Shown here: piece by piece, positions 24,734 to 44,649 of the stretch
How positions within the stretch are numbered: position 1 is the first letter of the stretch
Layout: the number at the start of each line of letters is the position of its first letter
Virus record (IMG/VR): IMGVR_UViG_3300038441_001406
Location: 1 to 50,272 of that record
Direction: 5' to 3' (one strand)
From: a virus
DNA length: 50,272 nucleotides
Position numbers and translations under genes: made by a program
Notes under the pieces: model-generated
What the model was told of the DNA's origin: nothing
The model's database searches: none
What the model saw: only the letters and a program-made list of their open reading frames with translations

Positions 24734-26449
24734 ATGAGCCTAAATCAACAAGTCTTCACGAACGCGGGCATCAACATGCTCGGACAAGCCAATGCAGGCA
24801 GCCTGCTGACGATTACAAAGATTGTCGTCGGTGCCGGGAGCGCAGGCAGCAACGCGGACCTTTATCCTTTGACCGCTCTCATCACTTTCAAAAACAATGT
24901 CACGATCACGCGCAAGACAGACTTGGGCGGGGGCAAACTCATTGTGTCTGGTGCGCTGGTCGAAGCACTGATTGCGGGCGCGCCTTACTCTTTGCGGGAG
25001 CTGGGAATCATGGCCAAGATCGGGACCGGGACGGAGCAGCTTTATACCGTGGCCAATGTTTTCGCCGACGTGCCCGACACGATCACCCCGGGCGGCACGA
25101 GCACGCACGCCTTTGATATCACCGTCGTAATCGACCAAGCGTCCTCGATCTCAGTCACGATTGGCAATCCCAACACAGTTGATTGCCAGAACATCCCAAC
25201 GACGCCTGCGACGGGGCCGGGACTCTACGCCCAACGCGTGGGCAATGTCTTTCAGTTCAAGCGCCTGGTGGCGGGGCCGGGCATCGCTTTCACGGAAGCA
25301 AGCGACCGAGTCACAGTCAGCGTGAAAGTAATAACCGTTGACTTGAATCTCTATGTCCCAGCCAGCCATCCCGACGCGCCCGGGCCGGAAGTGGCCTTCG
25401 CTACCCTGCAAGCGGCCTTCGATTACTTGGCGGAAATCCGCATCCCATTCGATAAGAAAGTCACAATCCATATTTACCGGGGCGTGTTCACCACCACCAG
25501 CGGGATCATTTGTTCGCATCCTAACTCCGCCCGAATCTTTGTCGTGGGCGACAACCCGATTATCAAAACCGTTTCTGCGATCACGCACTTCGACGCCACC
25601 CATAAGAAAGTCACGGTCAATAACACAACCGATCTGGCTGTAGATCATCATGTCACGATCGTGGATTCACCCGCAGGCTTTGCCGGTGGCTGCAAGATCA
25701 CCGCGATCGCGGGCAATGTCCTCACGGTCACAATCGAGAAGCGCGACTCTCGGGTAGCTTATACGACGCCGGCGGGATCCGGCTCGCGTCTCATCCGTTA
25801 CCCGACAGTCCTGGTCTGCGATGATCCGCCGAAAAACAATACGGCGCTCTGGTGCCCGTTCGGGCTGGGTGCGCTGCAATGGGTAACCATGCTGGGCGGC
25901 CGCGAATCTCTCTATGCGGAGAACTTCGTCTGGATCATTGGCTGTCTCTTTCGAGATAACACGACCGGCCTTTTCCTTTATCAATGCTCGGCCTTGCTGC
26001 AAGATGAAGTCACCTTCACGCAGTGTGACGTCGCGATTGACGGCGACGAGCTGGAAGCGCAGAAGCTTTACATCAATGGTTGCGAGCGCGGCATTCAAAC
26101 CAAGCACTCCAAGGTGGGCAATTACAAAGCAGGCTTATCCGTGGGTTTTTACGGTTACTTCTCGCACTGCATCTTTGCCATCAACATTTCGCTCAACGCG
26201 GAGTTGCAGGGCGGCAATCTGAAAGCATCGAGCAACGAAAGTCTAATCAACTGCGGGTTGGGGTCCACCGCTACGATCAACCATCCAGCTGGACCGCAGA
26301 CCACCTTCGACAACATGCCCGCGGTGACGGCGCAGGCCGCGATGAACAGTTTCATTCTCTGGTATAGGAACGGCGGGCCAGTGCCAATCTGCCAGCCACC
26401 AGCCGAGACGGTCGGCATCTTCGAATCACTCATCCACGTAGAACCATGA
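24734..26449 (+). CDS. Tail fibre with collar-type N-terminus and beta-helix, 571 aa
   Basis: Residues about 1-150 match the phage tail-collar fibre N-terminal domain: MSLNQQVFTNAGINMLGQA, then KIVVGAG, then ITRKTDLGGGKLIVSGAL and YSLRELGIMAK. This part attaches fibres to the baseplate after gpI, as P2 gpH does. Residues about 195-540 look like a right-handed beta-helix: many short strand turns with Asn/Gly/Asp corners, YAENFVWIIGCLFRDN, SHCIFAINISLNAELQGGN. It is therefore a receptor-binding or depolymerase-type tailspike. Unlike the exported proteins at 12-22 kb it has no signal peptide, which is normal for a virion fibre. The stop codon TGA overlaps hairpin copy 4. Confidence 0.8.
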   Translation: MSLNQQVFTNAGINMLGQANAGSLLTITKIVVGAGSAGSNADLYPLTALITFKNNVTITRKTDLGGGKLIVSGALVEALIAGAPYSLRELGIMAKIGTGTEQLYTVANVFADVPDTITPGGTSTHAFDITVVIDQASSISVTIGNPNTVDCQNIPTTPATGPGLYAQRVGNVFQFKRLVAGPGIAFTEASDRVTVSVKVITVDLNLYVPASHPDAPGPEVAFATLQAAFDYLAEIRIPFDKKVTIHIYRGVFTTTSGIICSHPNSARIFVVGDNPIIKTVSAITHFDATHKKVTVNNTTDLAVDHHVTIVDSPAGFAGGCKITAIAGNVLTVTIEKRDSRVAYTTPAGSGSRLIRYPTVLVCDDPPKNNTALWCPFGLGALQWVTMLGGRESLYAENFVWIIGCLFRDNTTGLFLYQCSALLQDEVTFTQCDVAIDGDELEAQKLYINGCERGIQTKHSKVGNYKAGLSVGFYGYFSHCIFAINISLNAELQGGNLKASSNESLINCGLGSTATINHPAGPQTTFDNMPAVTAQAAMNSFILWYRNGGPVPICQPPAETVGIFESLIHVEP

Positions 26450-26477
26450 AGCTTAATCGAAAAACCGATTAAGCTTC
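26448..26477 (+). repeat. Dispersed hairpin repeat, copy 4
   Basis: A 12-base-pair stem (26448-26459 with 26466-26477) closes on loop AAAAAC. Its first two bases are the last two bases of the fibre gene's TGA stop. Confidence 0.95.
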
Positions 26478-26495
26478 CCTAACGAAAGGAAAGAC

Positions 26496-27278
26496 ATGGC
26501 AGAAGTAGAGGAAATCAAAGAGGAAACATTGGGAGTCAATCCGCCGGTCGATCTCATCGAGTTCGGCCAAGCTAAAGATGGGACCACTCTGCATTGGGCG
26601 GTCAAAGAACCAGACAGAGACCAGTTCGCGCCACCTTGGTATTGCGTCCTCGCTGTGCACGGCGGCGGCTTCACTGGCGGGACACCAGGCACGCCGATTG
26701 GTGTCGCTGGGCCGGATCTCGCAGCGGCAGGCTTTATCGCTTTCTCGCCCGAGTATCGCTTAGCGCCGCCCGGAAAGATCGCAGGGCAGACATCGCTCGG
26801 CCGCTATCCGGACCAGACGGATGACTTGGCCGTGGCCATTGATGCCGCGACCAAAGACGATCGAGTGAAGGGCAATCCGCAAATGGTCGGCGGCAGCGGC
26901 GGAGCTTATCAGACAGCGTTTTGGGCAGCGAAGGGCGTGCTCACGGGAGTAGCTCTCTCGCCTTGCTCGCAACTCGATGATGCGATTGATCGGCGGAACT
27001 TCCCAACCTTTGCGGCTAAGTGCGACAACTACGCTGCGGGCCAATTGAGGGAAGCCTCGCCCAACACCTATGTGAATGAGGCTTCCAGACCGCTCCTGGT
27101 CGTGGCTTATTCAAGTGACCAGATGCCGCCCCGGCAATACAGCCGACTCGTGGAAGCCCTAGCTGCTTTCAACATCGAGCACGGCGCCATCCTGCTGCGA
27201 GGCAAAGGGCACTCATGGGATGCGTGGGTAAAGGTGAAAGCACAGGCCATCGCTTTTCTGCAAGAGCATAAAGCATAA
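26496..27278 (+). CDS. Alpha/beta hydrolase (carbohydrate-esterase-like), 260 aa
   Basis: ATG 26496 has GAAAGGAAAG upstream. The protein carries the hallmarks of an alpha/beta-hydrolase esterase: an oxyanion HGGGF motif at about residue 55, YRLAPPGK after it, the nucleophile elbow G132-G-S134-G-G136, an acidic site in YSSDQMPP and the catalytic His in GKGHSWDAW near the C-terminus. No signal peptide is present, so it acts in the cytoplasm or as a virion part. It shares the motifs G(R/K)YP(D/E)QTDD, GGSG, D-x-MP and GHSW/QHSF with the N-terminal domain of the giant exported protein, so the two are paralogues. A substrate such as acetylated polysaccharide is inferred. Confidence 0.75.
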   Translation: MAEVEEIKEETLGVNPPVDLIEFGQAKDGTTLHWAVKEPDRDQFAPPWYCVLAVHGGGFTGGTPGTPIGVAGPDLAAAGFIAFSPEYRLAPPGKIAGQTSLGRYPDQTDDLAVAIDAATKDDRVKGNPQMVGGSGGAYQTAFWAAKGVLTGVALSPCSQLDDAIDRRNFPTFAAKCDNYAAGQLREASPNTYVNEASRPLLVVAYSSDQMPPRQYSRLVEALAAFNIEHGAILLRGKGHSWDAWVKVKAQAIAFLQEHKA

Positions 27279-27303
27279 ACGAGCGAGAAAGCGTTTTGAT
27301 GTG

Positions 27304-30587: not shown

Positions 30588-31300
30588 TTCGGATATCAGA
30601 AATCTTCGGCCCAGTGATACAAGGTGAAGGCATCCATATCGGCGAGCCCACAATTTTCGTTAGGGTCGGCGGCTGCGACTATCGCTGCTCATGGTGTGAT
30701 ACGATGTATGCCGTCGACCCCATTCACCGCGCCGACTGGCATCCGATGAGTGACGCAGACATCTGCGCTGCGGTGCAAGAGTTAAGCAGTAAGCCCATCC
30801 TAATCACGCTCTCCGGCGGCAATCCAGCGCTCTACGACTTCGCCAATGTCATCGCCCACATGCAGGCCAGCGGTTATCACTTCACGATCGAGACGCAAGG
30901 CAGCATCGCGGCCAACTGGTTTCGCCTGCTCGATTCCATGACGCTCTCACCAAAACCGCCAAGCTCGAATATGCCGACCGATTACCAGAAGCTCGAACGC
31001 TGCATGGACTTTCTTGAACCCGACCGGATCAACCTAAAGATCGTGGTAGCCGATCAAGAGGACTATGAGTATGCGCGCCAGACCGCAGCGCGCTTTCCGC
31101 ATCTGCGCTGCTTTCTTCAGGTCTGCAATCCCAACCCGACCAGTGACACGTCACATCCATTCGATTTGGAACGCGAGCGCGACCTGCTCTTAGCCAAACT
31201 GCAATGGCTGACTGAGTTGGTTCTAGCGGATAGCTGGTTCAAAGCGACAGTGCTCCCACAACTGCACGTTCTAATTTATGGCAACCGGCGCGGCGTCTAG
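30584..31300 (+). CDS. queE: QueE, 7-carboxy-7-deazaguanine synthase (radical SAM)
   Basis: QueE is the radical SAM enzyme that contracts the pterin to 7-carboxy-7-deazaguanine. Seen: FGPVIQGEG at residues 8-16, the cluster motif C31-x3-C35-x2-C38 ([10 protein letters not shown]), [10 protein letters not shown] at about residues 84-93 where family members have TGGEP, and SPKPPSSN for the later SAM-binding strand. ATG 30584 overlaps the QueD stop (ATGA); a longer upstream frame runs wholly through QueD and is rejected. Length 238 is usual. The gene overlaps the FolE fusion gene by 23 bases. Confidence 0.92.
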
Positions 31301-32126
31301 GAAGGTTCTCTGGCCCGAGATCATCAGTCGCGTTGACGCACTGCCCCGCGATCACATCTACTACGGCATCCCTCGCGGGGGCACGATTGTGGCAGGGCTG
31401 GCTGCGTCGCGAGATTTAATCGTGACTGACAATCCAGCAGAGGCCACCGCTTATCTCGACGATATCGTTGACAGCGGCGCCACCAAAGCCAAATGGGTCG
31501 GCAAACCTTTCTTCCCACTGTTCGAGCGCGACAGTGCCTGGTTGGTCTTTCCTTGGGAACAGGATATGCAGACCGACGCGGAAGACATCGTCCGCCGCCA
31601 ACTCGAACTGATCGGCGAGAACCCAAACCGCGAAGGATTGAGCGCCACACCGCGGCGCGTCGTGGCTAGCTGGAAAGAGTTGTTCGCAGGATATCAACAG
31701 ACCGCCGAGGAGGTTCTGCGAAGCGACTTCGACGCAGACGGATACGACGAGATGATCGTCTGTCGGGACATCCAGTTTTATTCAACTTGTGAACATCACC
31801 TACTGCCCTTCTTTGGCCGCGCTCATGTCGGGTATCTGCCAAACAAACGAGTCGTCGGATTATCCAAGCTGGCGCGCCTGGTCGAAGTGTTCGCCCGCCG
31901 TCTCCAAATTCAGGAACGATTGACGCAGCAAATCGCGCAAGCACTGAACGAGCAGGCCCGACCGCGCGGCGTCGGCGTGATCTGCGAAGCGACGCACTTC
32001 TGCATGTTGTGTCGCGGGGTGCAAAAGCAGGAGTCAACCATGGTAACATCCGCGCTGGTTGGTCTCTTTCAAAAGCCCGCAGTGCGCGCCGAATTTCTCC
32101 GGCTGGCGCGGCGCTGCGAAGCTTAA
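31278..32126 (+). CDS. folE: Phosphoribosyltransferase-like domain fused to GTP cyclohydrolase I, 282 aa
   Basis: Residues about 95-282 are GTP cyclohydrolase [38 protein letters not shown] (Cys and His zinc ligands in CEHH), [19 protein letters not shown], and [19 protein letters not shown] (third zinc Cys). The enzyme makes dihydroneopterin triphosphate from GTP, the first step to preQ0. Residues about 10-90 are an added domain with [14 protein letters not shown] and the PRPP-binding-type loop [10 protein letters not shown] at residues 60-69, as in phosphoribosyltransferases. It ends WLVFPWEQD. The stop TAA is the left arm of hairpin copy 5. What the extra domain does is unknown; nucleotide handling or GTP supply is plausible. 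Confidence 0.88.
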
Positions 32127-32145
32127 TCGAAAAATCGATTAAGCT
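32119..32145 (+). repeat. Dispersed hairpin repeat, copy 5
   Basis: An 11-base-pair stem (32120-32130 with 32135-32145) closes on an AAAA loop, with one extra left-arm base unpaired. The left arm holds the TAA stop of the FolE fusion gene. It closes the modification operon. Confidence 0.95.
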
Positions 32146-32579
32146 CCCCGATTGTTGCCTCAGGGGCACGCGTTTGCCTTCTCTCTATTAGAGGAGCAGC
32201 GCAGAGCGAAGCGGATAAACGCTTGATTTTAGCTGCTTTGCGAGGGGTGATTTTCTTCTTGCGCTTGCTGCGAGGTCTGCGATCTTGCTGCTCGGTTCTC
32301 TTTTGAATCGGCTCGCTGAGAGATGCGAGCAGTTGTTCTCTGAGATTGCAGATTGAAGAAGGCGGTTAGCGCAGCAGTGAGTCGAAGCGGTAAAGTCAGA
32401 GCGCTCAGAAATCGAGCAGTTCGCGCATACAGCGAAAGCAGATTCTAAGGAGCGGTGGAGAGCAGATCGCGGGAGTAGCTCGCAGAGCGGGGCAAGCTTT
32501 CAATCGAAGAAAAATCAGAAGATGAGGCGGGGCGATAGCAAGCGCTCGCGCATCTTTTTGGATGACATAAAAAATTGCT

Positions 32580-32896: not shown

Positions 32897-32941
32897 CAGA
32901 TGATGACAGACCACTAACCACTAAGAAGAAAGAAAAGAACA

Positions 32942-33091
32942 ATGACACAAACACAGCTCGGACAGAAATTGGCCCTCGTGTGGCTCAACGCAGAGATCGG
33001 TAAGGATGGACGCAGCCCGCTGAAGCAGCTCCCGAAAGATTGGTGGCGTCTGCACGGCGCGACTTGGATGAAGGTCGCGAAGTCGGCCTAA
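32942..33091 (+). CDS. Small hypothetical protein, 49 aa
   Basis: ATG 32942 follows an A/G-rich leader (AAGAAGAAAGAAAAG) and a GC-rich hairpin, the arrangement used by the next genes. The 49-residue product begins MTQTQLGQKLALVWLNAEIG and has a Trp-rich centre (PKDWWRLHGATWMK). No family is recognised, but the start context and the following regular operon make it a real gene. Confidence 0.55.
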   Translation: MTQTQLGQKLALVWLNAEIGKDGRSPLKQLPKDWWRLHGATWMKVAKSA

Positions 33092-33127
33092 CGAGAACCA
33101 GCAATCAACCAGAAAGAGAAAAACAAA

Positions 33128-33376
33128 ATGAGCAACATCACCTACAAACTGAAACGCAAATCGGAAACGAATGAATGGCTCGTCGTCGCCTACGTGGACG
33201 GCAAGCGGAACGAAGACATGACCTACTACACGGACGACAAGCAGGACGCGATAGACACGCTCGCAGCGATGCAGAAGCCTGCGCTCGATCTCGAAACCAT
33301 CCCCGCTCCTTGGAAGCTCGCGCAGTTCTCCGAAGAGGATATGAGGGACGCGAGAGCGAACGCATGGATTGAATAG
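33128..33376 (+). CDS. Hypothetical protein, 82 aa
   Basis: ATG 33128 is 10 bases after AACCAGAAAGA (33107-33117). The small acidic protein has two or three predicted strands (TYKLKRKSETNEWLVVAYVDG) then helices (DKQDAIDTLAAMQ). A domain with this mix of strand and charge is common in phage early proteins. A strong hairpin follows its stop at 33381-33415. No function is known. Confidence 0.6.
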   Translation: MSNITYKLKRKSETNEWLVVAYVDGKRNEDMTYYTDDKQDAIDTLAAMQKPALDLETIPAPWKLAQFSEEDMRDARANAWIE

Positions 33377-33380
33377 TGGG

Positions 33381-33415
33381 CAGAGCGAGCAGCGTCCCCC
33401 AACGCTGCGGCTCTG
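33381..33415 (+). other. GC-rich intergenic hairpin
   Basis: CAGAGC (33381-33386) pairs with GCTCTG (33410-33415), enclosing GCAGCGT/ACGCTGC (33389-33395 with 33402-33408). It follows a stop codon by five bases and precedes the AACTAGAAAGA leader at 33452. There is no T-run. Confidence 0.7.
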
Positions 33416-33472
33416 GTCGCAATGACGCGGTCAGTAACAACAAAGCAGAGTAACTAGAAAGACAGATACAAA

Positions 33473-33826: not shown

Positions 33827-33860
33827 TCCCCCGGTCTACCCCCTTAGCGGTTGGAGGCGG

Positions 33861-34676: not shown

Positions 34677-34677
34677 G

Positions 34678-35515: not shown

Positions 35516-35530
35516 GCGATAACGCCGATG

Positions 35531-35574: not shown

Positions 35575-35610
35575 CAGAGAACCAGAAACAAACTAGGAGG
35601 TAAGTTAGTT

Positions 35611-36357
35611 ATGATATTGGCAGCCAAAAAGACAATGAAGATACATCCGTTTGCGCGGATGTTCAGTCAGGTCGCGCCGCTCTCGAAAGAGAAGCGCGAC
35701 GAGATGGTGAAGAGCATCGAGAAGAACGGGATACTCATTCCGATGTTGGTCAACAAGAAGAAGGATACGATCTACGACGGGGCGACCCGTTGGGGCATTG
35801 CCTACGACTTGAAGCTCAAACTCGAGGATGACCGCTTCGAGGTTTTTCCGAGCGAAGACGAGGACGATATTCGGGAAGCGATCGCGGCCCGCAACATCGA
35901 CCGGCGGCAGTTGACTGATAAAGAGCGCTCCGATCTCATCTCAAAACTCTTCGGGCCGAAGCTCGAAGAGGAAGCAAGACAGCGGCAGAGCAAGGCGGGG
36001 AGCTTCAAGGGGGCGACCAAGCTCGATGGCAAAGGCAGCGTGGCGGAGAAGATCGCGACCATGGCTGGTGTAAAAAAGAGCACAGCGCAGCAGTCAGAAA
36101 AGTTGCGCAAGGCTGGCGTGCTTGATGATGTGCTGCAAAAGAAAACAGCTCGGACGGCAGCACTCAAGAAAGCGCCGACCAGGAAAAAGGCCGCGAGCAA
36201 GTCAACGATTCCTTTTCCCGACCAGGTCTATAAGAAGTGGAGTCAGTTCGTGGCCCGCTTCCCTCACCCTGTCCGGCGCGAAGTGATCGAGCTGGTGCAT
36301 GGCTGGACGAAGCCGGGCGCGGCGGTCCCGAAGCCCTCAACTCCGGCCAAGAAGTAG
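35611..36357 (+). CDS. ParB-like nuclease-domain protein, 248 aa
   Basis: ATG 35611 has GGAGG 10-12 bases upstream plus the AACCAGAAACA leader. Residues about 5-100 are a ParB N-terminal domain: KIHPFARMFSQVAPLSKEKRDEM, then VKSIEKNGILIPMLV, then DGATRWGIAYDL. A basic/acidic middle follows (EAIAARNIDRRQLTDKERSDL), where ParB proteins have an HTH, and the C-terminus is Lys/Ala/Pro-rich (KKAPTRKKAASKST). It is a second ParB-fold protein, unlike the one next to dpdA. A role in regulation or DNA binding is likely but unproven. Confidence 0.75.
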   Translation: MILAAKKTMKIHPFARMFSQVAPLSKEKRDEMVKSIEKNGILIPMLVNKKKDTIYDGATRWGIAYDLKLKLEDDRFEVFPSEDEDDIREAIAARNIDRRQLTDKERSDLISKLFGPKLEEEARQRQSKAGSFKGATKLDGKGSVAEKIATMAGVKKSTAQQSEKLRKAGVLDDVLQKKTARTAALKKAPTRKKAASKSTIPFPDQVYKKWSQFVARFPHPVRREVIELVHGWTKPGAAVPKPSTPAKK

Positions 36358-36368
36358 GCTGGCAGAGC

Positions 36369-36421
36369 GCGAGCAGTCAGGCAGGGTTCAAGCCCCGGTC
36401 TGACTGTTCTGCTCTGCTCGC
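36369..36421 (+). other. GC-rich intergenic hairpin
   Basis: GCGAGCAG (36369-36376) pairs with CTGCTCGC (36414-36421), enclosing TCAG/CTGA (36377-36380 with 36400-36403). It follows the ParB-like gene and precedes AACCAGAAAGA at 36438. Confidence 0.7.
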
Positions 36422-36452
36422 AATCAAGCAAGCAGCTAACCAGAAAGAACAC

Positions 36453-36638
36453 ATGAACAAAATCGACCAACTGCGAATCGCTTATACCCTTCGCTTCTGC
36501 GCCCTGAGAGCGAAGCGAGCGGGATGCCGCTATCATGAGGCGGGCGTGATGATTCGGGACATCATACGCGCCCAGCAACTGCCAATGACAAACAGAGAGA
36601 TCACCACATCGATCAAGGAGGCGTATGGCCGAGCCTAA
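36453..36638 (+). CDS. Small helical protein, 61 aa
   Basis: ATG 36453 is four bases after AACCAGAAAGA (36438-36448). Longer frames upstream run through the hairpin and ParB-like gene and are rejected. The helical basic product (KIDQLRIAYTLRFCALRAKR) may bind nucleic acid, but no family is seen. The stop overlaps the next gene by 14 bases. Confidence 0.6.
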   Translation: MNKIDQLRIAYTLRFCALRAKRAGCRYHEAGVMIRDIIRAQQLPMTNREITTSIKEAYGRA

Positions 36639-36837
36639 AATGACATTCAGAAAAATGGTTCTCGGATATCACTACACCGACGGAGAGACGGTGGGTGTCT
36701 ACACAGTGGACTGCGAAAATTGCGCAACCAGCGGCGCTCATACGCAGAGACCAATGGTGCAACTTGCGGTCACGCATCAAGATTCGCAAATCATCAGGGA
36801 ATGGTTCGCGGTCGCTGACTTAAAGGAGGTCGATTAA
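36625..36837 (+). CDS. Hypothetical protein, 70 aa
   Basis: ATG 36625 has AAGGAGG upstream. A small beta-rich protein (KMVLGYHYTDGETVGVYTVDC) with two Cys at ENCATSG and DCEN that could be a tiny metal site. No family recognised. Confidence 0.55.
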   Translation: MAEPKMTFRKMVLGYHYTDGETVGVYTVDCENCATSGAHTQRPMVQLAVTHQDSQIIREWFAVADLKEVD

Positions 36838-36843
36838 ACACCC

Positions 36844-37086
36844 ATGAAGAAACTAGACTGGTCAATTATCGCGGTCGTCATCATGTTCATTGTCTATTGC
36901 CTCGCAGTGAACGCTGACGGGGCGGAGCCAAAGAAGAAAGCGCAGCGCGACCGCAATTACATCCTGCGTCGTCAGTCCGCCTATCAGGTGCAAGGTCCGC
37001 CGGTGCGCCGTCTCATCATCGGGAAGCGCGAGGTTGACATCTACCGCGACGGGAGCGCCTTCGAGAAAGACAGGAGGGCACGATGA
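36844..37086 (+). CDS. Small exported or membrane protein, 80 aa
   Basis: ATG 36844 is close to the previous stop. Residues about 5-24 (DWSIIAVVIMFIVYCLAVNA) form a membrane span or signal peptide, possibly cut after ADGA. The rest is basic (KKKAQRDRNYILRRQSAYQV). It could be a periplasmic or membrane-anchored small protein. The stop overlaps the next gene (ATGA at 37083). Confidence 0.6.
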   Translation: MKKLDWSIIAVVIMFIVYCLAVNADGAEPKKKAQRDRNYILRRQSAYQVQGPPVRRLIIGKREVDIYRDGSAFEKDRRAR

Positions 37087-37298
37087 CTGGCGAGCAGATT
37101 AAGGCGCACACGCTGGGCATCATCCGACAAGCTCTCGAAGTGCAGGACGCTCTCGATGCTGAACGGTGGACGGCAGCGCAGATGATCCTGACTGGCATCC
37201 GCACTGACAGCAAGCGCCTGCAGGAGCACTGCGCGGAAAAGGTCGAACAAATCGCGGGCAAGCTTTCAACCGCGGTCGAGCGGCATGGACGAAGATGA
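37083..37298 (+). CDS. Small helical protein, 71 aa
   Basis: Coupled by ATGA. A mostly helical sequence (HTLGIIRQALEVQDALDAER, then AAQMILTGIRTDSKRLQEH) with no Cys cluster or membrane segment. It overlaps the next gene by 14 bases. No function visible. Confidence 0.55.
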   Translation: MTGEQIKAHTLGIIRQALEVQDALDAERWTAAQMILTGIRTDSKRLQEHCAEKVEQIAGKLSTAVERHGRR

Positions 37299-37479
37299 TG
37301 ATGGGCTACCAGCAGATCAAGTGCGGCGCTGCGGCCGCTGCCGAGAAGACTTCGAAAGCATCGTGCAGCGCGGACGCCCAACCTTCGTGCCGCTCTTCTG
37401 CTCGGACTGCGATGAGATCATGGCGAACGAGCTGCAATGGCGAGAGCATCGAGAGAAGCTTAATCGAAAAACCGATTAA
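37285..37479 (+). CDS. Zinc-finger-like protein ending in hairpin repeat, 64 aa
   Basis: The product carries two Cys pairs, CGRC near residue 16 and CSDC near residue 39, suitable for one zinc ion. The final residues EKLNRKTD and the TAA stop are encoded by hairpin copy 6, reading through its left arm and loop and stopping in the right arm. Its natural end was probably near residue 57 before the repeat (inference). Confidence 0.6.
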   Translation: MDEDDDGLPADQVRRCGRCREDFESIVQRGRPTFVPLFCSDCDEIMANELQWREHREKLNRKTD

Positions 37480-37485
37480 GCTTCT
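37454..37485 (+). repeat. Dispersed hairpin repeat, copy 6
   Basis: A 13-base-pair stem (37454-37466 with 37473-37485) closes on loop AAAAAC. The upstream gene ends in its right arm (TAA 37477-37479). A 335-base non-coding segment follows. Confidence 0.95.
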
Positions 37486-37584
37486 GCTGCCCCTCGCAGC
37501 GCCAGAGGGGCAGCGCAGAGCGCAAGGGGCAAGAACGCAGCATCGAGCAGCGCAGAAATGCTCAAATCCGAGCCCAGGCGAGCC

Positions 37585-37651
37585 CCTAGGACGTTTTTCG
37601 ATAGCGAGCAATGATCTTGTAGCGCTCGCACCCATAAAAACGCTGCCTAGG
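37585..37651 (+). promoter_or_regulatory. Nested stem structure, candidate anti-terminator form
   Basis: CCTAGG (37585-37590) pairs with CCTAGG (37646-37651), CGTTTTT (37592-37598) with AAAAACG (37636-37642) and GCGAGC (37604-37609) with GCTCGC (37624-37629). Forming it would use bases needed by the terminator-like stem at 37640-37664. Confidence 0.5.
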
Positions 37652-37670
37652 CGATCCTGAGCGTCTTTTT
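37640..37670 (+). terminator. Candidate intrinsic terminator
   Basis: ACGCT (37640-37644) pairs with AGCGT (37660-37664), and CTTTTT follows at 37665-37670. The stem is short, and the loop contains GCCTAGGC, which can pair with itself. It competes with the nested stem upstream. Confidence 0.45.
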
Positions 37671-37820
37671 CTGCTCTCTCAGAGCGAAAACCCCGCTTTT
37701 CCCTCTCTGCGCGCTCTGCGCTCTCTTGCATCGAGCAGAGCAGCGCGACGCCGCAGGGGCGCTCCCAGTGCGATTTTCAACCCCTTCCAGAGCGCAACCA
37801 GAAAGAGAAAGGAAGAGAGA

Positions 37821-38168
37821 ATGAACGAAGAGCAAATCAAAGAGAGAGCGACCCGTTGGGCCGCGCTCTACCGCAATCCGAAATCGCGCCCACAGATGGA
37901 CGATGTTTTGCGCGGCTTGAATGAAGCCGGTCGAACACTGGTCATCCTCGGCGGCCAGCGGATTGCGGGTGGCCTGCCGTGGCGACTAGCAAGCCTGACA
38001 GAAAGAAAGGAGGTTGAGACAAATGGGAACAGCAATAAAACAAAAGGGCGACGACCGGCTTCCGCTACAGCTGGCGCTAAAACAGCTAAAGCGAAAGTTT
38101 CCGTGGGCGCCCATAGCAGCCCTCAGAAAACAAATCACCGCCGGACTAATGCCGGTCACAAGAAGTAG
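37821..38168 (+). CDS. Hypothetical basic protein, 115 aa
   Basis: ATG 37821 is 14 bases after AACCAGAAAGA (37796-37806). Residues 1-65 look folded (RATRWAALYRNPKSRPQMDD, LNEAGRTLVILGGQRIAGG). The last 50 residues are Lys/Ala/Ser/Thr-rich and probably disordered. The last 145 bases overlap the next gene in another frame. The disordered tail may therefore exist only because of that overlap. Confidence 0.55.
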   Translation: MNEEQIKERATRWAALYRNPKSRPQMDDVLRGLNEAGRTLVILGGQRIAGGLPWRLASLTERKEVETNGNSNKTKGRRPASATAGAKTAKAKVSVGAHSSPQKTNHRRTNAGHKK

Positions 38169-38244
38169 CTTTGCAGAGAAGAGCCGCATCTATGTGCGGA
38201 TGGAGGACCTAGAGAAATTACTCCTCAGAGCAGAAACAAAGTAA
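38023..38244 (+). CDS. Putative small DNA-binding (excisionase-like) protein, 73 aa
   Basis: ATG 38023 has the long ribosome binding site AAGAAAGGAGG just upstream, so it is favoured although it lies inside the previous gene. The sequence (FPWAPIAALRKQITAGLMP, then RIYVRMEDLEKLL) has the look of small winged-helix/excisionase domains, which end in (V)R-x-xDLE-x-L. A regulatory role is inferred. Confidence 0.6.
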   Translation: MGTAIKQKGDDRLPLQLALKQLKRKFPWAPIAALRKQITAGLMPVTRSSFAEKSRIYVRMEDLEKLLLRAETK

Positions 38245-38252
38245 GAAAAAAA

Positions 38253-38303
38253 TCGCTGGCCGCGACTGCTCCCAAATATGAAAAAGAGCGCCACGACCAG
38301 CGA
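38253..38303 (+). other. Intergenic hairpin before the ERF gene
   Basis: TCGCTGG (38253-38259) pairs with CCAGCGA (38297-38303). It follows a stop codon and precedes AACCAGAAAGA at 38309, repeating the arrangement seen at 33381 and 36369. Confidence 0.65.
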
Positions 38304-38328
38304 GAGTTAACCAGAAAGAACTATAAAC

Positions 38329-39387
38329 ATGGAAAAGAAAAGTGGTTTAGTCAAGAAGCTCATCGAGATCCTGAAAGAAGTAGGACCGATCGAGAAGGCC
38401 GAGCGCAACGCGCATTTCGGCTACAACTACACTGGCGAAGGCCAAGTATTGGCGGCGCTCCGCGGCAGACTCGCGGAGCGGAACATCCTTCTCATCACGA
38501 GCGTCTCAACCTGCGTCCCTGAGTATGGGGAAGGCGGGCATGGCGTTTATGTCTGCGTCACGACCAGGCATAAATTCATGGATGGAGAGACGGGCGAAGA
38601 GTTAGAGCTTCAAGGTGCTGGTCTCGGTTGGGACTCCGGCGATAAGGGCGTTTACAAAGCGATCACCGGCGCGGTCAAATACGTCCTGATGAAAAACTTT
38701 CTCATCACGGACGGTCAGGATCCGGAGTCGGGCGAGCAGCGCAAGCCGGCTGCTGAGCCCGGTCAAGCGCCAGCTGGCGCGCCGCACCGGCGGACGCGGG
38801 ACTATGAGAATGAGACAGGCAAGGGAGACAAAAAAGTCGAGACAGACTTCGCGGCCCTGGATGCCTTTCTGCTCGAAAATAACATCCCACAAGGGTTCGT
38901 TATCTTGAGGCTGAAAGAGAAAGGACTCATCGATGCGAGAGCGACGAAGCTCGATAACATCAAACCGGGCATCCTGAAGCGCTGCATCCAACCGGCAGCG
39001 AAGGCGACTCTGCTCAAGGCATGGGCCGATCAACAAAAAGACGATGAAGGACAGAGCGGCACTGAGACCAAGGTCGCGCCGCGCGAGAAGAAAGAAGTGC
39101 GGACCAATGAAGGCGACCAGACGCGAGCAGGAACAAGGCGGCAACCGTGCGCCGGTCAGGACCCAAAAGCGGTAGTCGAGGAAGCAGGCCACAAAAACTG
39201 GCGGACAGTCAAGATCCATTGGGGCCGAGATAAAGGAACGCCGTTAGGCAAAGTCTCGAAGAAGTCGTTAACCGGATATTGGATCAGCCAATGGCATCCC
39301 GAGTTGTATCGCAACAAATGGAATAAGGATGACGTCCTCTTGGACAGCGCGATTTGTCTGGCCAGTGAAGAGATTGGAGGTGAGTGA
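38329..39387 (+). CDS. ERF-family single-strand annealing protein, 352 aa
   Basis: ATG 38329 is nine bases after AACCAGAAAGA. Residues about 1-130 match ERF annealing proteins: IEKAERNAHFGYNYTGEGQV, LAALRGRLAERNI, then GAGLGWDSGDKGVYKAITGA followed by VKYVLMKNF, the most conserved ERF block. ERF proteins pair complementary strands in phage recombination. A charged linker (about residues 145-240) and a C-terminal module with WRTVKIHWGRDKGTPLGKVS and GYWISQWHPEL follow. The next-but-one gene encodes a PD-(D/E)XK nuclease, the usual partner. Confidence 0.85.
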   Translation: MEKKSGLVKKLIEILKEVGPIEKAERNAHFGYNYTGEGQVLAALRGRLAERNILLITSVSTCVPEYGEGGHGVYVCVTTRHKFMDGETGEELELQGAGLGWDSGDKGVYKAITGAVKYVLMKNFLITDGQDPESGEQRKPAAEPGQAPAGAPHRRTRDYENETGKGDKKVETDFAALDAFLLENNIPQGFVILRLKEKGLIDARATKLDNIKPGILKRCIQPAAKATLLKAWADQQKDDEGQSGTETKVAPREKKEVRTNEGDQTRAGTRRQPCAGQDPKAVVEEAGHKNWRTVKIHWGRDKGTPLGKVSKKSLTGYWISQWHPELYRNKWNKDDVLLDSAICLASEEIGGE

Positions 39388-39684
39388 ATGAGCGGACTAA
39401 CCTGCCGCAGTTGCGGCGCTGAAGTCATCGTCGCGCAGACATCCAATAACAAGCGGATGCCAGTCGACCGGCGAGCATCTCCGAAGGGAAATATTCTGCT
39501 GGTTCATCAACCGAACAACATCCCTCGGGCCGTGGTGATTAAAGCTGAGGCGCGGGAACGTTATGCGGGCAAGCTGCGGTTGAGTCACTTCGCCACTTGT
39601 CCGAACGCGGCGCAGCATCGGCAGCCGAAAGAAAGGAGGCATCATGGCGACCAGAAAGAAACGAGCCAGACCGGACAAGCCTAA
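39388..39684 (+). CDS. Small zinc-finger-like protein, 98 aa
   Basis: ATG 39388 starts directly after the ERF stop. CRSCGAEV near residue 6 gives one Cys pair. HFATCPNAAQH near residue 67 offers His/Cys for a second site. A region of low complexity (RRHHGDQKE) ends it. It overlaps the nuclease gene by 41 bases. No family given. Confidence 0.55.
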   Translation: MSGLTCRSCGAEVIVAQTSNNKRMPVDRRASPKGNILLVHQPNNIPRAVVIKAEARERYAGKLRLSHFATCPNAAQHRQPKERRHHGDQKETSQTGQA

Positions 39685-40798
39685 CCAACATGAGATCGAG
39701 AGCGAAGGACTGCCGAGCGGCAGTTGCTTCGACTCTTGCTTCCGGTGCCCGGGGAAATGGAAGATAACGCGCCGTTTGCCCAAAGAAGATGACACCGTCC
39801 ATACCCTGAAAGGAAAGCGGATTCACGAGGCAATGGCCTCTGGTGACTTCTCCACCTTGCCGAATAAAAGCGAGCGAGACATTGCCGCGCGCATTGCTTA
39901 CGCTGAGGGAGAGATCGTCAATGAGTATAACTTCGAGGGCGCGGAAGTCGAGTTCGAGCAGCGCATCTGGGACTTCGACTTCAACTTGAACAAGACATGG
40001 TCGATGCAGATGGATCGCTACGACTGGCAACCGGACAAGCGTCGGCTCTTAGCCATCGATGACAAGAGCGGTTGGACCTTGGTCCCGCCGGTGGCGCGCA
40101 ACTGGCAAATCAGAAGCGGCGGCGCGCTCTTAGCGGAGCAGCTGGACGCCCTAGAGCTAGTCTGCGCGCTTATCCATCCGTTCAGTCCCGAGAGCTTATG
40201 GGAAGCCAAAGTCTATACGCGCCAAGAGAGCGACGCGCTCTTATCCGTGACCAGGCATCTCGTGCAACAGATCCAGCTGCCCAATCAGCGCCGCATCGTC
40301 GGCGGGATCCAATGCGAGTGGTGCGCAGCCAAGCAGGTCTGCCCCGAGTTCATTGCGAGCGAAGCGGCGCTAGACCAGAAGGTCGACGACTGGATTCAGG
40401 ACGAAGGCTTCACGGCGATCAACCGGCAGTCACCAGAAGAGCGAGCCGAGACCGTCCGAAGTTTGAAGCAGCGGTTTCGGAATATCGAGTTCGTCCTCGA
40501 TCAATACACGGAGTTAGCCAAGCGAGACGAGAGCGCCATCCAAGGCTATCGACTGGCGCGCAAATACAACGTGACGGTGGCGAACGAAGCGACAGCGATG
40601 GAGATAGCGAAGAAAGAGTTCGGCGACGAGGCCATGTATTCGGCGCTGAAATTCTCCGTTGCGGCGTTGATCGAGGAAGTGCAGACAAAGACGAGGACGG
40701 GGAAGAAAGAAGCGAAGGCAGCGGTCGAGCGAGTCTTAGGACCGCTGCTCCAATATAAGGCGTCGAAGCATTTCCTTGAGGAAGCGAGGTCCGCATAA
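39644..40798 (+). CDS. PD-(D/E)XK nuclease (DUF2800-like), 384 aa
   Basis: ATG 39644 has GAAAGGAGG upstream. Motifs seen: CFRCPGKWKITRRLP with the Cys and start of the fold, GKRIHEAMASG, QMDRYDWQPDKRRLLAIDDKSGW with the nuclease D and the D-x-K-S-G active site, and a late CEWCAAKQVC Cys group that may hold a metal cluster. Such proteins resemble phage RecB/Cas4-type exonucleases. Neighbouring ERF suggests a single-strand-annealing recombination module in which the nuclease makes 3' ends. Confidence 0.8.
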   Translation: MATRKKRARPDKPNQHEIESEGLPSGSCFDSCFRCPGKWKITRRLPKEDDTVHTLKGKRIHEAMASGDFSTLPNKSERDIAARIAYAEGEIVNEYNFEGAEVEFEQRIWDFDFNLNKTWSMQMDRYDWQPDKRRLLAIDDKSGWTLVPPVARNWQIRSGGALLAEQLDALELVCALIHPFSPESLWEAKVYTRQESDALLSVTRHLVQQIQLPNQRRIVGGIQCEWCAAKQVCPEFIASEAALDQKVDDWIQDEGFTAINRQSPEERAETVRSLKQRFRNIEFVLDQYTELAKRDESAIQGYRLARKYNVTVANEATAMEIAKKEFGDEAMYSALKFSVAALIEEVQTKTRTGKKEAKAAVERVLGPLLQYKASKHFLEEARSA

Positions 40799-41023
40799 AT
40801 GGACGACTGGGAATGGGAGTTCTTTATCGGCCGCTGGGAAGGGTTGGAGTATCCCAAGCCAGAGGATTACATGAGCCTAACCGATGATGAGCTACGCGAA
40901 GGCACAGCCAGAGCAAGAAGCGAAAAGATTAAAGGTATCCGGCGCTGGCCGTCACCACTGAGCGAGAAGCAACGGTGGTGCCTGGCCTTCTGGATCGCTG
41001 AGAACGAAGCACAATACGTATGA
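40799..41023 (+). CDS. Hypothetical protein, 74 aa
   Basis: ATG 40799 comes directly after the nuclease stop. The acidic, Trp-rich N-terminus (DDWEWEFFIGRWEGLEYPKP) and helical rest have no recognised family. The stop overlaps the next gene (ATGA). Confidence 0.55.
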   Translation: MDDWEWEFFIGRWEGLEYPKPEDYMSLTDDELREGTARARSEKIKGIRRWPSPLSEKQRWCLAFWIAENEAQYV

Positions 41024-41208
41024 CACACGACTGGAAAGACCTGACGCAAGAGTGGGCTACACCGCATGGCCGCTACTGCACGAAATGCAGGAAGCGGCAG
41101 TTCCATATCAACATGCACAACGGCCGCGGCGGCAGGTCGCGTTTTGTCTGGAGACCAAAGGTCGGTCTCTGCACCGGGAAGCCTAACCATGAGAAAAAAG
41201 AAACCTGA
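41020..41208 (+). CDS. Small Cys-pair protein, 62 aa
   Basis: Coupled by ATGA. CTKCRKRQFHINMHNG gives one Cys pair plus His. The final stretch contains another Cys (KVGLCTGK). It may be a tiny zinc ribbon. The next gene starts 20 bases before its stop. Confidence 0.5.
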   Translation: MTHDWKDLTQEWATPHGRYCTKCRKRQFHINMHNGRGGRSRFVWRPKVGLCTGKPNHEKKET

Positions 41209-41497
41209 CAAAAAAACGATAGAGAGCGTGGCCGAAGAGATCATCGGCATCGCGACCGGAGCGTTCATCAGCGCTTATATGAAACACCGGCGCGGCGAAA
41301 GTCTTGAGGCCATCCTAATCGATCTGGATATTCGCGGGGCTTACCACTCCACGGATAAAGAGACCATGAACATCATGCGGGCGGCGAGCAAGGCGGGCGT
41401 CTCTGCGCTGAAGGCCAACCTAGGACTCGATCCGGCGCTCAAACGTTTACAGTCCAGATTGGAAGCGCGCTACCAACAGGTCTTACGCGACTTATGA
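41189..41497 (+). CDS. Hypothetical helical protein, 102 aa
   Basis: ATG 41189 overlaps the previous stop region; a longer upstream frame is rejected because it runs through that gene. The chain is basic at the N-terminus and helical (TIESVAEEIIGIATGAFISAY, YMKHRRGESLEAILIDL) and ends ALKRLQSRLEARYQQVL. No family recognised. The stop overlaps the next gene (ATGA at 41494). Confidence 0.55.
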   Translation: MRKKKPDKKTIESVAEEIIGIATGAFISAYMKHRRGESLEAILIDLDIRGAYHSTDKETMNIMRAASKAGVSALKANLGLDPALKRLQSRLEARYQQVLRDL

Positions 41498-41829
41498 GAG
41501 AGAGAAACTGGCAAGAGAAGTGGGCCGAGTATCAGCGCTCGAAAGCGCGGCCTTTGAAGCCGGGCAAGCAATGGCGCTTTACGCATCGCCTCGAGATCGA
41601 TCGGAAGCAGCGCTGGCGCTGCGCCTGCGGCTATCAACTGGGAGACGGCCGCCAGCAGTTTCTGGCGCGCTGTTCCTTATACAAGGAGGACGAAGCTTAT
41701 TCGAAAAACCGATTAAGCTTAGGCACTCATGCTAAGAAGAAACAAAAAACTGCGCCAAGTCAGCGACAGGCGAGCGCTCGAACTGGCAAAGTATCGACGG
41801 AGACGACCGATCTTTTTAGGCTTGAATAG
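41494..41829 (+). CDS. Cys-bearing protein extended by a lost stop codon in hairpin copy 7, 111 aa
   Basis: ATGA-coupled start at 41494. Residues 1-68 end YKEDEA. In other repeat copies the next codon is TAA, but here the left arm has TAT (41698-41700), so the frame runs on through the hairpin and into the next gene's coding region, adding 43 residues. The final 34 codons overlap the HNH-like gene. The original end was most likely at 41700 (68 aa). One WRCACGYQ segment suggests a Cys pair. Confidence 0.6.
   Translation: MRERNWQEKWAEYQRSKARPLKPGKQWRFTHRLEIDRKQRWRCACGYQLGDGRQQFLARCSLYKEDEAYSKNRLSLGTHAKKKQKTAPSQRQASARTGKVSTETTDLFRLE
41693..41720 (+). repeat. Dispersed hairpin repeat, copy 7 (mutated left arm)
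   Basis: A hairpin with arms 41693-41703 and 41710-41720, loop AAAAAC. The left arm has T instead of A at 41700, which breaks one stem pair and destroys the in-frame TAA stop of the upstream gene. Confidence 0.95.
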
Positions 41830-42025
41830 CATCTGTGTCGCCTGCCGAATCATGGCCGCGACTCAGATTCATCATGCGGCGGGCCGGGAGGGCTGGCGCT
41901 TGCTTTACGAACCATGGTGGCGGGCGCTCTGCCATCTCTGTCATGACTATTTCACCCGACACAAACAAGAAGCAATCGAGCGCGGCATTTCACTGCCGCG
42001 CGCAACCAGGAGACCAGAGGAATGA
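41729..42025 (+). CDS. HNH endonuclease-like protein, 98 aa
   Basis: The start is ATG 41729 behind hairpin copy 7. Motifs fit a small HNH fold: CVACRIMAATQIHHAAGREG with the H-H pair, WRALCHLCHDYFTRH with CxxCH. Such HNH proteins nick DNA and occur free in phages. The N-terminus is basic (MLRRNKKLRQVSDRRALEL). There is a chance it is an inactive relative; the catalytic His and Asn cannot be confirmed by eye. Confidence 0.7.
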   Translation: MLRRNKKLRQVSDRRALELAKYRRRRPIFLGLNSICVACRIMAATQIHHAAGREGWRLLYEPWWRALCHLCHDYFTRHKQEAIERGISLPRATRRPEE

Positions 42026-42285
42026 AAGGCAGATCGAAACACAAACCAACGACAGTCAAAGAAGTCATAAGGGAATTACGAGCCGAGCAGCGCGAGAAGC
42101 GAGGGGCAGCGTTTCAAGCGCACTGTGACGGCAATTACATCCTAGAAGATTCGCTGACTTACTCAGCATGTGCGCTTCTCTTCGCAGCGCGCTTCATCGA
42201 AAGACATAAGGTGACAGCGACGACTTTGCAGCGTGCTCTGGATGAGCAGACAGCGAGGAAAGGAGCGCTGGAACACTACCGATGA
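42022..42285 (+). CDS. Hypothetical helical protein, 87 aa
   Basis: ATGA-coupled to the HNH-like gene. Mostly helical with basic ends (TVKEVIRELRAEQREKRGAA). No family or motif identified. Confidence 0.5.
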   Translation: MKGRSKHKPTTVKEVIRELRAEQREKRGAAFQAHCDGNYILEDSLTYSACALLFAARFIERHKVTATTLQRALDEQTARKGALEHYR

Positions 42286-42695
42286 ACGAACTTTTATTTC
42301 CCTGGCAATATGCCGGGATGAGTAACACAGAGCGGACCAAAGCTTACTTAAAGCATCATGGCTGGGAGTGCGAAGTGACCGAGCGCTGGAATCCCTTTGC
42401 CAAGGTGCGACAGGACTTGTTTAAGTTCATTGACGTCCTCGCGGTGCATCCCAAGGGCAAGCTGCTCGCTTTGCAGACTTGCAGCGGTGACGGCGGCGAC
42501 CCTGCGGCGCGAGTCCGCAAGATCAAGGCAAATAAGATTGCCAAACTGCTGGCGGCACACATGGAGATCGAGGTTTGGTCATGGGCCCGGCGCGGTCCCT
42601 TGAAGCGTTTCGAGGTGCGGAAGCAATCGCTTACGGCAAAGCTTCTGCCCAAGAGATCGCTGCTACGAAAGAAGATTGAGGAAGGAGAGTGGTAA
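42282..42695 (+). CDS. Resolvase/nuclease-fold protein, 137 aa
   Basis: ATGA-coupled at 42282. The stretch DLFKFIDVLAVHPKGKLLAL at about residues 45-64, followed by QTCSGDGGDPAARVRKIKAN, resembles small PD-(D/E)XK nucleases found in phages and helpful in recombination (pattern (D)-x-x-x-(F)IDxLA ... LALQxxS). The expected Glu/Lys of the active site is partly replaced (QTCS). It may still bind DNA. Neighbouring HNH and ERF genes agree with a DNA-metabolism module. Confidence 0.65.
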   Translation: MNELLFPWQYAGMSNTERTKAYLKHHGWECEVTERWNPFAKVRQDLFKFIDVLAVHPKGKLLALQTCSGDGGDPAARVRKIKANKIAKLLAAHMEIEVWSWARRGPLKRFEVRKQSLTAKLLPKRSLLRKKIEEGEW

Positions 42696-42709
42696 CTAGA
42701 AAGGAAAAT

Positions 42710-43261
42710 ATGTCGAATGAACAACGTGAGTTAGAGCTGCCCGGGGCTCGCTATTTGCTAAAGAAAGAGAAAAGAAATGAGAGAAAGAAAGAGAAAGAAG
42801 CAAAGAGAAAGAAAGAGAGCAAAGGAAAAGAGATAGAAAAAGAAAAAGTTTTTTCGCGGGCGCGAGGCCGTGGCCGGAAAAAAGACTGGGAAGCGTCCAT
42901 TGACTATGCGGACGAAGAGTTACAAGCCGAGTGGGCTGCGTTTCAGCTAAGTCGGCACCAGATGCGAAAAGATATTACCGACATCAGTCGAGGCCGCTTT
43001 ATCATGAGGCTCAGTCGCTGGACGAAAGAGAGAGCGATCGCTGCGCTGCGTTACTCAACCGAGAATGGTTATCAAGGAATCTTTGAGCCGCCAGCAGAGC
43101 GCAGAGCAGCAATGTTAACAAAACCCAATCTGCCTTGGAGCATGCGGGAACGAAAGATCAACAAACTGAATGAGCGCAAGGCAGAGCTTATGCGAGAAGA
43201 GCAAACGCCTCGAGTTGTGGCTGAGTTGGCTCGAATCCAAACTGACCTACTAGACTTATGA
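42710..43261 (+). CDS. Lys/Glu-rich protein, 183 aa
   Basis: ATG 42710 follows AACTAGAAAGG (42694-42704) by five bases. A GTG at 42689 would start earlier. Residues about 17-55 are an extreme Lys/Glu/Arg run (EKRNERKKEKEAKRKKESK), encoded by A/G-only DNA. The remaining part is helical (ADEELQAEWAAFQLSRHQMR). The charged tract may be disordered or coiled coil. No known family. The stop overlaps the next start (ATGA). Confidence 0.6.
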   Translation: MSNEQRELELPGARYLLKKEKRNERKKEKEAKRKKESKGKEIEKEKVFSRARGRGRKKDWEASIDYADEELQAEWAAFQLSRHQMRKDITDISRGRFIMRLSRWTKERAIAALRYSTENGYQGIFEPPAERRAAMLTKPNLPWSMRERKINKLNERKAELMREEQTPRVVAELARIQTDLLDL

Positions 43262-43791
43262 AAGGCAAAATACCAGAAAGCAAAAAACATCCAATGCCGC
43301 CAGAGTTTTCCGACTGGTGGTATCCGACCAATGTCGATCCAAAGACCGGGGTCAGTATCGGCGGCCATCCCGAAGCGAGCCGCATCTGGGCGCGACCATG
43401 CCCCGATGGCTACGAGCGCCGGCGCTACGGCATCACAGCGCAGCTCGCTTGGAATTGCCAAGCATATCGGATTGAGTATGACGAATGGCTGCTCATGGGG
43501 TCGCCGCCGCTGACCTTTGAGAGCTACAGCTTGCCGCTGTCGGAACAAAAGAAGCGCTGGGCAGAAGTGACTGCGCTCTTGCGTAAGATCGGTCGGGTGG
43601 CTCCGATACATCCAAAAGAGTTGCAGGACGCCAAGCTGAGCGGCGAGCGGCGGACCTTGATTGACGTCGAAGATTTACCAGAAGAGAAAACCAACAAACC
43701 AGAAAGACCAAAAGACAATGAGCAAACAGAAGAGGAAGGATATCTCCCCGGAGACGACAGCGACATCGAGCCCATCGACTTCAGCCCTTGA
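43258..43791 (+). CDS. Hypothetical protein, 177 aa
   Basis: ATG 43258 lies in the previous stop. A leader-like ACCAGAAAGC occurs 14 bases after this ATG, and an in-frame ATG at 43294 (MPPEFSDWWYP) follows it, so that start is an alternative. The chain is rich in Trp, Pro and charged residues. The last 50 residues are acidic (KDNEQTEEEGYLPGDDSD). The next gene starts inside it. Confidence 0.55.
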   Translation: MKGKIPESKKHPMPPEFSDWWYPTNVDPKTGVSIGGHPEASRIWARPCPDGYERRRYGITAQLAWNCQAYRIEYDEWLLMGSPPLTFESYSLPLSEQKKRWAEVTALLRKIGRVAPIHPKELQDAKLSGERRTLIDVEDLPEEKTNKPERPKDNEQTEEEGYLPGDDSDIEPIDFSP

Positions 43792-43981
43792 CCTGAGCGC
43801 AAGCGACGACCCGATGGGGCTGACCGGAGCGGATCACAATTACAAGCTGCTCAACCCCGAGTGGTGCCAGTGCAGCAACGTGGACCATGACATGAGCAAG
43901 ATCGCTTACTACCGAAGCGCAGAGAGCGGGATGCACGGTTGGATGTGCACTATCTGCCGGGGGATCGTGCAAACAGGCTAA
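43718..43981 (+). CDS. Cys-pair protein nested in the end of the previous gene, 87 aa
   Basis: ATG 43718 is 10 bases after AACCAGAAAGA (43697-43707), which lies in the coding part of the previous gene, and it overlaps that gene by 74 bases. The acidic start is followed by CQCSNVDHDM and a CTICRGIVQTG end, which may form one zinc ribbon. The leader within coding DNA supports the start. No family named. Confidence 0.6.
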   Translation: MSKQKRKDISPETTATSSPSTSALDLSASDDPMGLTGADHNYKLLNPEWCQCSNVDHDMSKIAYYRSAESGMHGWMCTICRGIVQTG

Positions 43982-43986
43982 CCCCT

Positions 43987-44166
43987 ATGGCAAAACACCA
44001 CGAGAAGAAACCGGAGTTAGAGCGGCCGCTGGCAGAATACGAACGAGCCTACAAGGCAGCGGAGCGCCGCTTCAACGAGACCGGCAGCTCAGCCGCTCAC
44101 AAAGAGATGTTACAAACCTTCGCCGATTGGAGGGCCGCAGCTTATGGCAAAAGATTACCCGTTTGA
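43987..44166 (+). CDS. Small helical protein, 59 aa
   Basis: ATG 43987 is chosen close to the previous stop. A helical, charged protein (LERPLAEYERAYKAAERRFN) that overlaps the YkgJ-like gene by 23 bases. No motif found. Confidence 0.5.
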   Translation: MAKHHEKKPELERPLAEYERAYKAAERRFNETGSSAAHKEMLQTFADWRAAAYGKRLPV

Positions 44167-44629
44167 GCGCAGCACCTGCGCCTGCCGGGAGTGCGTCCGC
44201 TGCTGTCATCGGCAGCCTGGTCCACTCGACAACAAGGACTTCGAAGAGATCGTTCGACATATCGCCAAAAAGCAAGGAGCGAGCCTCGAAGTTGCTTTTC
44301 AATGGGTCAAAAGCCGACTTTGCGCCAGTCCCGGTGCGGTCGTGCGAATGCCGGGCGGCGCGGTCATGCGGATTGGCTCGATTACCCCGCAGATGCGAAA
44401 GCGGAGCGACGGCGTGCGCTGCTGCGTCTTTCTCGATGAGAACGACCGCTGCACGATTCACGAAGTCTCGCCCTTCGGTTGCCGGATGTTCGATACCCAC
44501 ATGGATGGCAAGCGCGCCATGCCGCGATCAATCGCGCTGGCCCGAGCGCAGTTGGATCCGGAATACAAAGCGCTGCGGGACACACTGCCCTACGCCCAGA
44601 GTTACAGGCCGCAGAGATACCAAGCTTAA
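44144..44629 (+). CDS. YkgJ-like Cys-cluster protein, 161 aa
   Basis: The product has the YkgJ family layout: CACRECVRCCHRQPGPLDNK near residues 12-31 and CCVFLDENDRCTIHEVSPFG followed by CRMF near residues 93-115, with conserved Cys that bind zinc or an iron-sulfur cluster. The family is widespread in bacteria and known in phages, with no clear function. The TAA stop lies in the left arm of hairpin copy 8. ATG 44144 is inside the previous gene. Confidence 0.75.
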   Translation: MAKDYPFERSTCACRECVRCCHRQPGPLDNKDFEEIVRHIAKKQGASLEVAFQWVKSRLCASPGAVVRMPGGAVMRIGSITPQMRKRSDGVRCCVFLDENDRCTIHEVSPFGCRMFDTHMDGKRAMPRSIALARAQLDPEYKALRDTLPYAQSYRPQRYQA

Positions 44630-44649
44630 TCGAAAAACCGATTAAGCTT
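44622..44649 (+). repeat. Dispersed hairpin repeat, copy 8
   Basis: An 11-base-pair stem (44622-44632 with 44639-44649) closes on AAAAAC. Its left arm supplies the TAA stop of the upstream gene, and the next ATG follows three bases after the right arm. Confidence 0.95.

Follow-up and report, generated by a model that had tools for sequence, protein, structure and literature searches.

The 50,272-nucleotide viral DNA analyzed here (IMG/VR record IMGVR_UViG_3300038441_001406, positions 1 to 50,272; hereafter, the window, meaning this entire stretch) contains a 28-base-pair (bp) hairpin, AAGCTTAATCGAAAAA(C/T)CGATTAAGCTT, that recurs along the genome, mostly at gene boundaries. We consider it likely, if short of certain, that these hairpins are evenly spread predicted binding sites (dyads) of one dimeric phage DNA-binding protein, most likely, the orphan ParB-like protein encoded at window positions 35611-36357. 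The assignment to this protein rests on distribution and fold, and its role as the binder, as well as the clamp and silencing steps considered below, are predictions from sequence.

Dyads in the window and in related phages

The window contains nine copies of the dyad, all on the plus strand, at 5-32, 4068-4095, 11156-11183, 26449-26476, 32119-32146, 37456-37483, 41693-41720, 44622-44649 and 49792-49819. A tenth copy is located at position 5772 of an 8.5-kb IMG/VR contig (L001), where its left arm ends an open reading frame (ORF; 5561-5779 of L001). This contig, which encodes the terminase, portal and capsid proteins and has a 69-base identical overlap with the start of the window, must, judging from its sequence, be the upstream end of the window's own genome or of a near-identical one. 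Window positions 1-4 read CCAG, which lengthens the first hairpin to a longer perfect palindrome; L001 has GCGG there, and the CCAG is probably a fold-back or assembly artefact of the contig end. Four of the ten copies hold the stop codon of a gene, one overlaps a stop codon, four are intergenic, and one lies inside a gene (genes were called with a simple custom caller, which leaves the precise starts of small genes uncertain). Eight of the ten are located within 40 bp of a gene start or end, compared to 22% of random positions, a placement that is far from chance. The A-rich strand of every one of the ten copies coincides with the coding strand of the upstream gene.

A tail-sheath search yielded 61 relatives of this phage, and a sheath search of GTDB genomes found none. 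Sixteen genomes were compared by dyad search: eight carry a dyad family of their own, seven have none detectable by this search, and the sixteenth (G017), a 27-kb fragment with two related-looking dyads, was scored as site-less in the 16-genome trees. The filtered families consist of 6 to 15 copies per genome. The dyads of the relatives are also 28 bp long and differ in their letters (for example, TCAGTTATCCTGAAAACGGGATAACTGA, ACCCTTATATTGAATTCAATATAAGGGT, AAGCTTATCTGCATTTGGTGATAAGCTT and CAGCTTAGCGTGAAAACACGCTAAGCTG), and all families share the frame (C/G)TTA-N14-TAA(C/G), with G002, where one half-site has CTTT in place of TTA, as a partial exception. The distance between TTA and TAA is always 14, even in dyads with a palindromic, loopless center. 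Within each genome, the copies are nearly uniform, which points to a single trans-acting reader. When dispersed intergenic 12-mers were searched for blindly, the genomes fell into the same site-bearing and site-less groups; the site-less genomes have no comparable 12-mers, except for one 4-copy motif in G007. Both G017 dyads (L101 5987; L102 7323, that is, G017 27323) read GACCTTGGGGTCAAATGACCCCAAGGTT, with a similar frame, and the second lies directly 3' of a fibre-type gene; this contig is not long enough to show any accompanying ParB.

Across the eight genomes, 77 sites were placed, of which 43 are intergenic, 14 contain a stop codon, 12 overlap one, and 8 are inside called genes. The same junctions are occupied again and again: over all genome pairs, 67 common junction families were observed vs 19.7 expected, although the pairs are not independent. 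The junction between the baseplate gene c15 and the tail gene c16 carries a site in seven of the eight site-bearing genomes; in the site-less relatives, these two genes overlap or abut at stop and start. In the window, the copy at 5 is 3' of the capsid gene (which is on L001), and the orthologous junction is filled in G001, G002, G003, G004 and G019. The copy at 4068 separates the tail sheath and tail tube genes, a junction also filled in G002, G003 and G019. At 11156, the site lies between a Shine-Dalgarno (SD)-like AAGGAGG and the ATG (11192) of the following tail gene, with counterparts in G001, G002, G004, G008, G009 and G019. The 26449 copy is at the end of the tail fibre gene (post-fibre sites are also found in G002, G003, G004, G008 and G009), and the 32119 copy follows FolE, as do sites in G008 and G009. 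The copy at 49792 is intergenic.

The sites are evenly spaced. The coefficient of variation of the spacing is 0.23-0.55, vs 0.73-1.02 for random choice among the same junctions, with p values from <0.0002 to 0.057 (nominal p <0.05 in seven of the eight genomes). In the present genome, there is mostly one site per 3-7 kb, with a single 15-kb gap.

An orphan ParB-like protein that accompanies the sites

The candidate binder (35611-36357, plus strand; 248 amino acids) combines a predicted ParB N-terminal fold, in which the GxxR motif is retained, with a subsequent helix-turn-helix (HTH)-like stretch that was recognized by eye; matches to TIGR00180 (7.4e-6) and to a PDB ParB profile (7e-5) point to the ParB family. 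Its gene is found in each of the six site-bearing contigs that extend to this locus and is missing from all seven site-less ones; judging from gene order, the three site-bearing contigs without it stop short of the locus. The sixth of these cases, contig L103, has five sites with the same letters as those of G004, with which it also has the stretch AGVSQRKGEQAEKVRK in common. Three protein families are present in all five of the fullest site-bearing genomes and in no site-less one, namely, Erf, the ParB-like protein and one unknown family, and only the ParB-like protein has a recognizable region for sequence-specific DNA binding. In site-bearing phages, the Erf-like gene (38329-39387, plus strand) and the ParB-like gene are members of one early module.

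In phylogenetic trees of the sheath, capsid and baseplate proteins, site-bearing and site-less phages are intermixed, and a single clade of site-bearing phages is rejected by the approximately unbiased (AU) test (p-AU 9e-5 for the sheath and 3e-11 for the capsid). In all of the independent pairs (4 of 4 and 3 of 3), the presence of ParB agrees with that of the sites. The sites therefore follow the early-gene module rather than the late genes that house them.

No homologue of the window protein was found in INPHARED, and wider ParB searches gave one partial match to the G009 protein in INPHARED, two weak plasmid matches and one further IMG/VR contig (L103). An Erf profile search revealed no new site-bearing genome. 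A distant Erf match led to two IMG/VR contigs (L114 and L115, from G021 and G022) that contain 9 and 19 matches (at most one mismatch) to the perfect palindrome CCCATAACGTTATGGG, dispersed over 17.7 and 39.8 kb, respectively; this dyad set is unrelated, and no ParB like the one described here accompanies it.

Several observations weigh against the assignment of the sites to the ParB-like protein. Its similarity to known ParBs is weak: the matches to TIGR00180 and PF02195 (0.0023) are below the curated NCBIfam and Pfam cut-offs. The AlphaFold model is poor (predicted local distance difference test, pLDDT, 51) and was not used for fold search. Erf and the unknown protein have exactly the same distribution. 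No site adjoins parB in the window's own genome; the adjacency seen in five of the six cases speaks for the assignment but is weak support because many junctions are occupied. The sign test on 4 or 3 independent pairs cannot reach significance. The correlation between ParB distance and site distance (rho 0.52, fourth of 27 families; 0.22 for the HTH part taken separately) comes from five genomes and is unconvincing. Finally, the uniform orientation of the ten copies is not required of a pure DNA dyad, although the relatives are mixed in this respect.

The most serious alternative, which we nevertheless consider unlikely, is that a small HTH or other DNA-binding protein from the early region, an unrecognized classical repressor, blocks stray transcription at all dyads, with ParB being a mere neighbor. 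The precedent is provided by the stoperators of mycobacteriophage Cluster A (L5, Bxb1), 13-bp asymmetric sites bound by the HTH immunity repressor, which are similarly numerous throughout the genome, mainly intergenic, and vary in their letters between related phages along with the repressor (PMC3029335). That all ten copies are oriented alike with respect to the upstream gene and that many small early proteins have no family match are both compatible with such a scheme. However, the dyads are 28 bp long rather than asymmetric 13-bp sites, are evenly spaced, often include stop codons, and have no fixed orientation in the relatives. No classical repressor or integrase was recognized among the proteins scanned, and among the three families that track the sites exactly, ParB alone resembles a sequence-specific DNA binder. 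A ribbon-helix-helix protein encoded beside the terminase was rejected as the binder because it occurs in site-less phages too; the respective gene is antisense (L001, about 5243-5463) and occurs in almost every one of these phages, whether site-bearing or not. The conserved inverted repeats of phiC31 and the c1 operators of P1 likewise represent operators distributed along a phage genome; these differ from the present sites in binder and spacing as far as known.

The conserved unit is DNA

As RNA, the copies in the window fold well (-13.1 kcal/mol, z -8.9), which, together with their single orientation relative to the upstream gene, the stop codons they often contain, and the location of some copies between an SD-like sequence and an ATG, is what would be expected of hairpins acting in the transcript, in 3'-end processing, RNA stability, termination or translational coupling, with stops supplied on purpose. 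Nevertheless, we regard this possibility as quite improbable. No run of U residues that would mark an intrinsic terminator follows the stem of any copy in the inspected flanks of the window copies. The copies in G002 are conserved yet fold poorly (mean minimum free energy -4.5 kcal/mol, with 6.9 of the 11 arm positions paired), and those of G004 and G019 fold only moderately. In G003 and G009, the dyad centers are palindromic and loopless, and in G001 and G008, the orientation is mixed. What is fixed is the TTA-TAA spacing, not the loop. Because the G002 sites are kept although they fold poorly, and the G003 and G009 centers have no loop, it is the double-stranded DNA dyad, not an RNA structure, that is conserved.

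Stop codons and gene ends

A preliminary description of the window proposed that the hairpins supply stop codons, have probably replaced gene ends, and represent an element able to spread with little harm. The underlying coordinates are reproduced in full. The TAA codons of the FolE gene (31278-32126, plus strand; stop at 32124-32126) and of the YkgJ-like gene (44144-44629, plus strand; CxxCxxCC domain; stop at 44627-44629) are in the left arms of the 32119 and 44622 copies. The small ORF 37285-37479 reads through to a TAA in the right arm of the 37456 copy (37477-37479) and gains the residues KLNRKTD, and the last base of the fibre gene TGA (26447-26449) is the first base of the 26449 copy. 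The element indeed carries TAA in two of the three forward frames, at its positions 6 and 22.

Thus, the dyads do supply stops, here and in the relatives, but the replacement of gene ends is not supported. Homologues of FolE and YkgJ without a site end within 0-3 residues of the same point, which, to this tolerance, is the outcome that the preliminary description had named as refuting its proposal. FolE ends with ...FLALVAR or ...FFALVARS in the absence of a site, with ...FFRLVNRSG where the stop precedes the site, and with ...FLRLARRC+EA here; YkgJ ends with ...YKPNAY or ...YKPSRYR without a site and with ...YRPQRY+QA here. In both cases, the site contributes two residues (EA and QA, respectively) and the stop, and the C-terminus is otherwise native, rather than cut. 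Among the phages compared, only this one has a site at the end of the YkgJ-like gene; a gain at this gene end is therefore probable.

Such a gain, along with the near-identity of the copies and the stops they bring, is also what a selfish hairpin spreading through gene ends would produce, but this origin appears very unlikely. Orthologous junctions in related phages are occupied by dyads that have the frame in common but differ in spelling, an observation at odds with the free variation of positions expected of a mobile hairpin; the letters change across all copies together; the spacing is even; and the sites follow the early-gene module. No element-encoded enzyme was recognized. Within ORF 41494-41829, which contains the 41693 copy, this phage and G009 both keep a site and read through it in the same frame, although the spellings differ; here, the frame is open because a single A-to-T change turned the in-frame TAA of the site into TAT. 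Given the common junctions, the even spacing, the native C-termini and the poor RNA folding in G002, both a mobile element and an RNA hairpin were rejected as the principal explanation of the dyads.

Other features of the genome

Between 28026 and 32126, the window encodes a 7-deazaguanine gene cluster (a TGT-like transglycosylase, QueC, QueD, QueE and FolE), which suggests that the phage DNA contains modified guanine. A long common motif, AACCAGAAAGA..., directly precedes the ATG of many early genes (32900-48400) and is possibly an extended ribosome-binding site. Tandem coding repeats of the Thr-Pro type are present in genes for proteins of 2289 amino acids (repeats at 20520-20667) and 284 amino acids (48747-48840).

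A possible mode of action of the ParB-like protein

Several dyads and the gene for a ParB-like protein are found on the same replicon, as in the KorB-OB system of plasmid RK2, where KorB is a sliding clamp and silencer that acts at dyad operators (PMC11790492). Unlike the present sites, which are mostly at gene ends inside operons, OB is a 16-bp site located upstream of promoters, and no counterpart of the KorA partner was found. The same combination of a ParB-like protein with multiple dyads on one genome could suggest centromere-like sites for true plasmid partition of an N15-like plasmid-prophage, but this is hardly credible given that no ParA-like Walker motif was found by motif search in the site-bearing genomes W+, G004, G008 and G009, in contrast to ParABS systems, where the ParA ATPase is encoded with ParB, and that no prophage functions were recognized.

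Under the ParB hypothesis, dimers would load at every dyad, and the loaded protein might then close as a nucleotide-dependent clamp and slide, coating the phage DNA between the sites. The outcome would be KorB-like silencing or genome organization, not ParA-driven segregation. The sites would occupy gene junctions because 28 bp are tolerated there, with the supply of stop codons being a by-product of this placement; where a site parts an SD-like sequence from the ATG, the site may fold out of the transcript owing to its self-complementarity. We further suggest, somewhat more tentatively, that an orphan ParB with evenly tiled 28-bp loading sites coats the whole genome without ParA, that sites were gained or lost on several occasions at the same junctions along with exchange of the early module, and that the letters, diverging from one lineage to the next, serve as a self-recognition code.

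Many phages encode orphan ParB-like proteins, a recognized group with a CTPase-type fold, with which the present protein appears to share the ParB N-terminal fold, GxxR and the lack of a ParA partner; in the consulted part of a survey, their functions are described as mostly unknown, and no candidate site set is given (PMC12704722). Here, one such protein is paired with what appear to be its own sites, readable from the sequence in six contigs and in five spellings. This pairing opens the way to direct tests of which dyad is bound by each protein, whether the protein slides, and how it affects transcription or packaging. More generally, what looks like a repeat supplying stop codons may instead be a protein-binding site squeezed into a tight gene junction.

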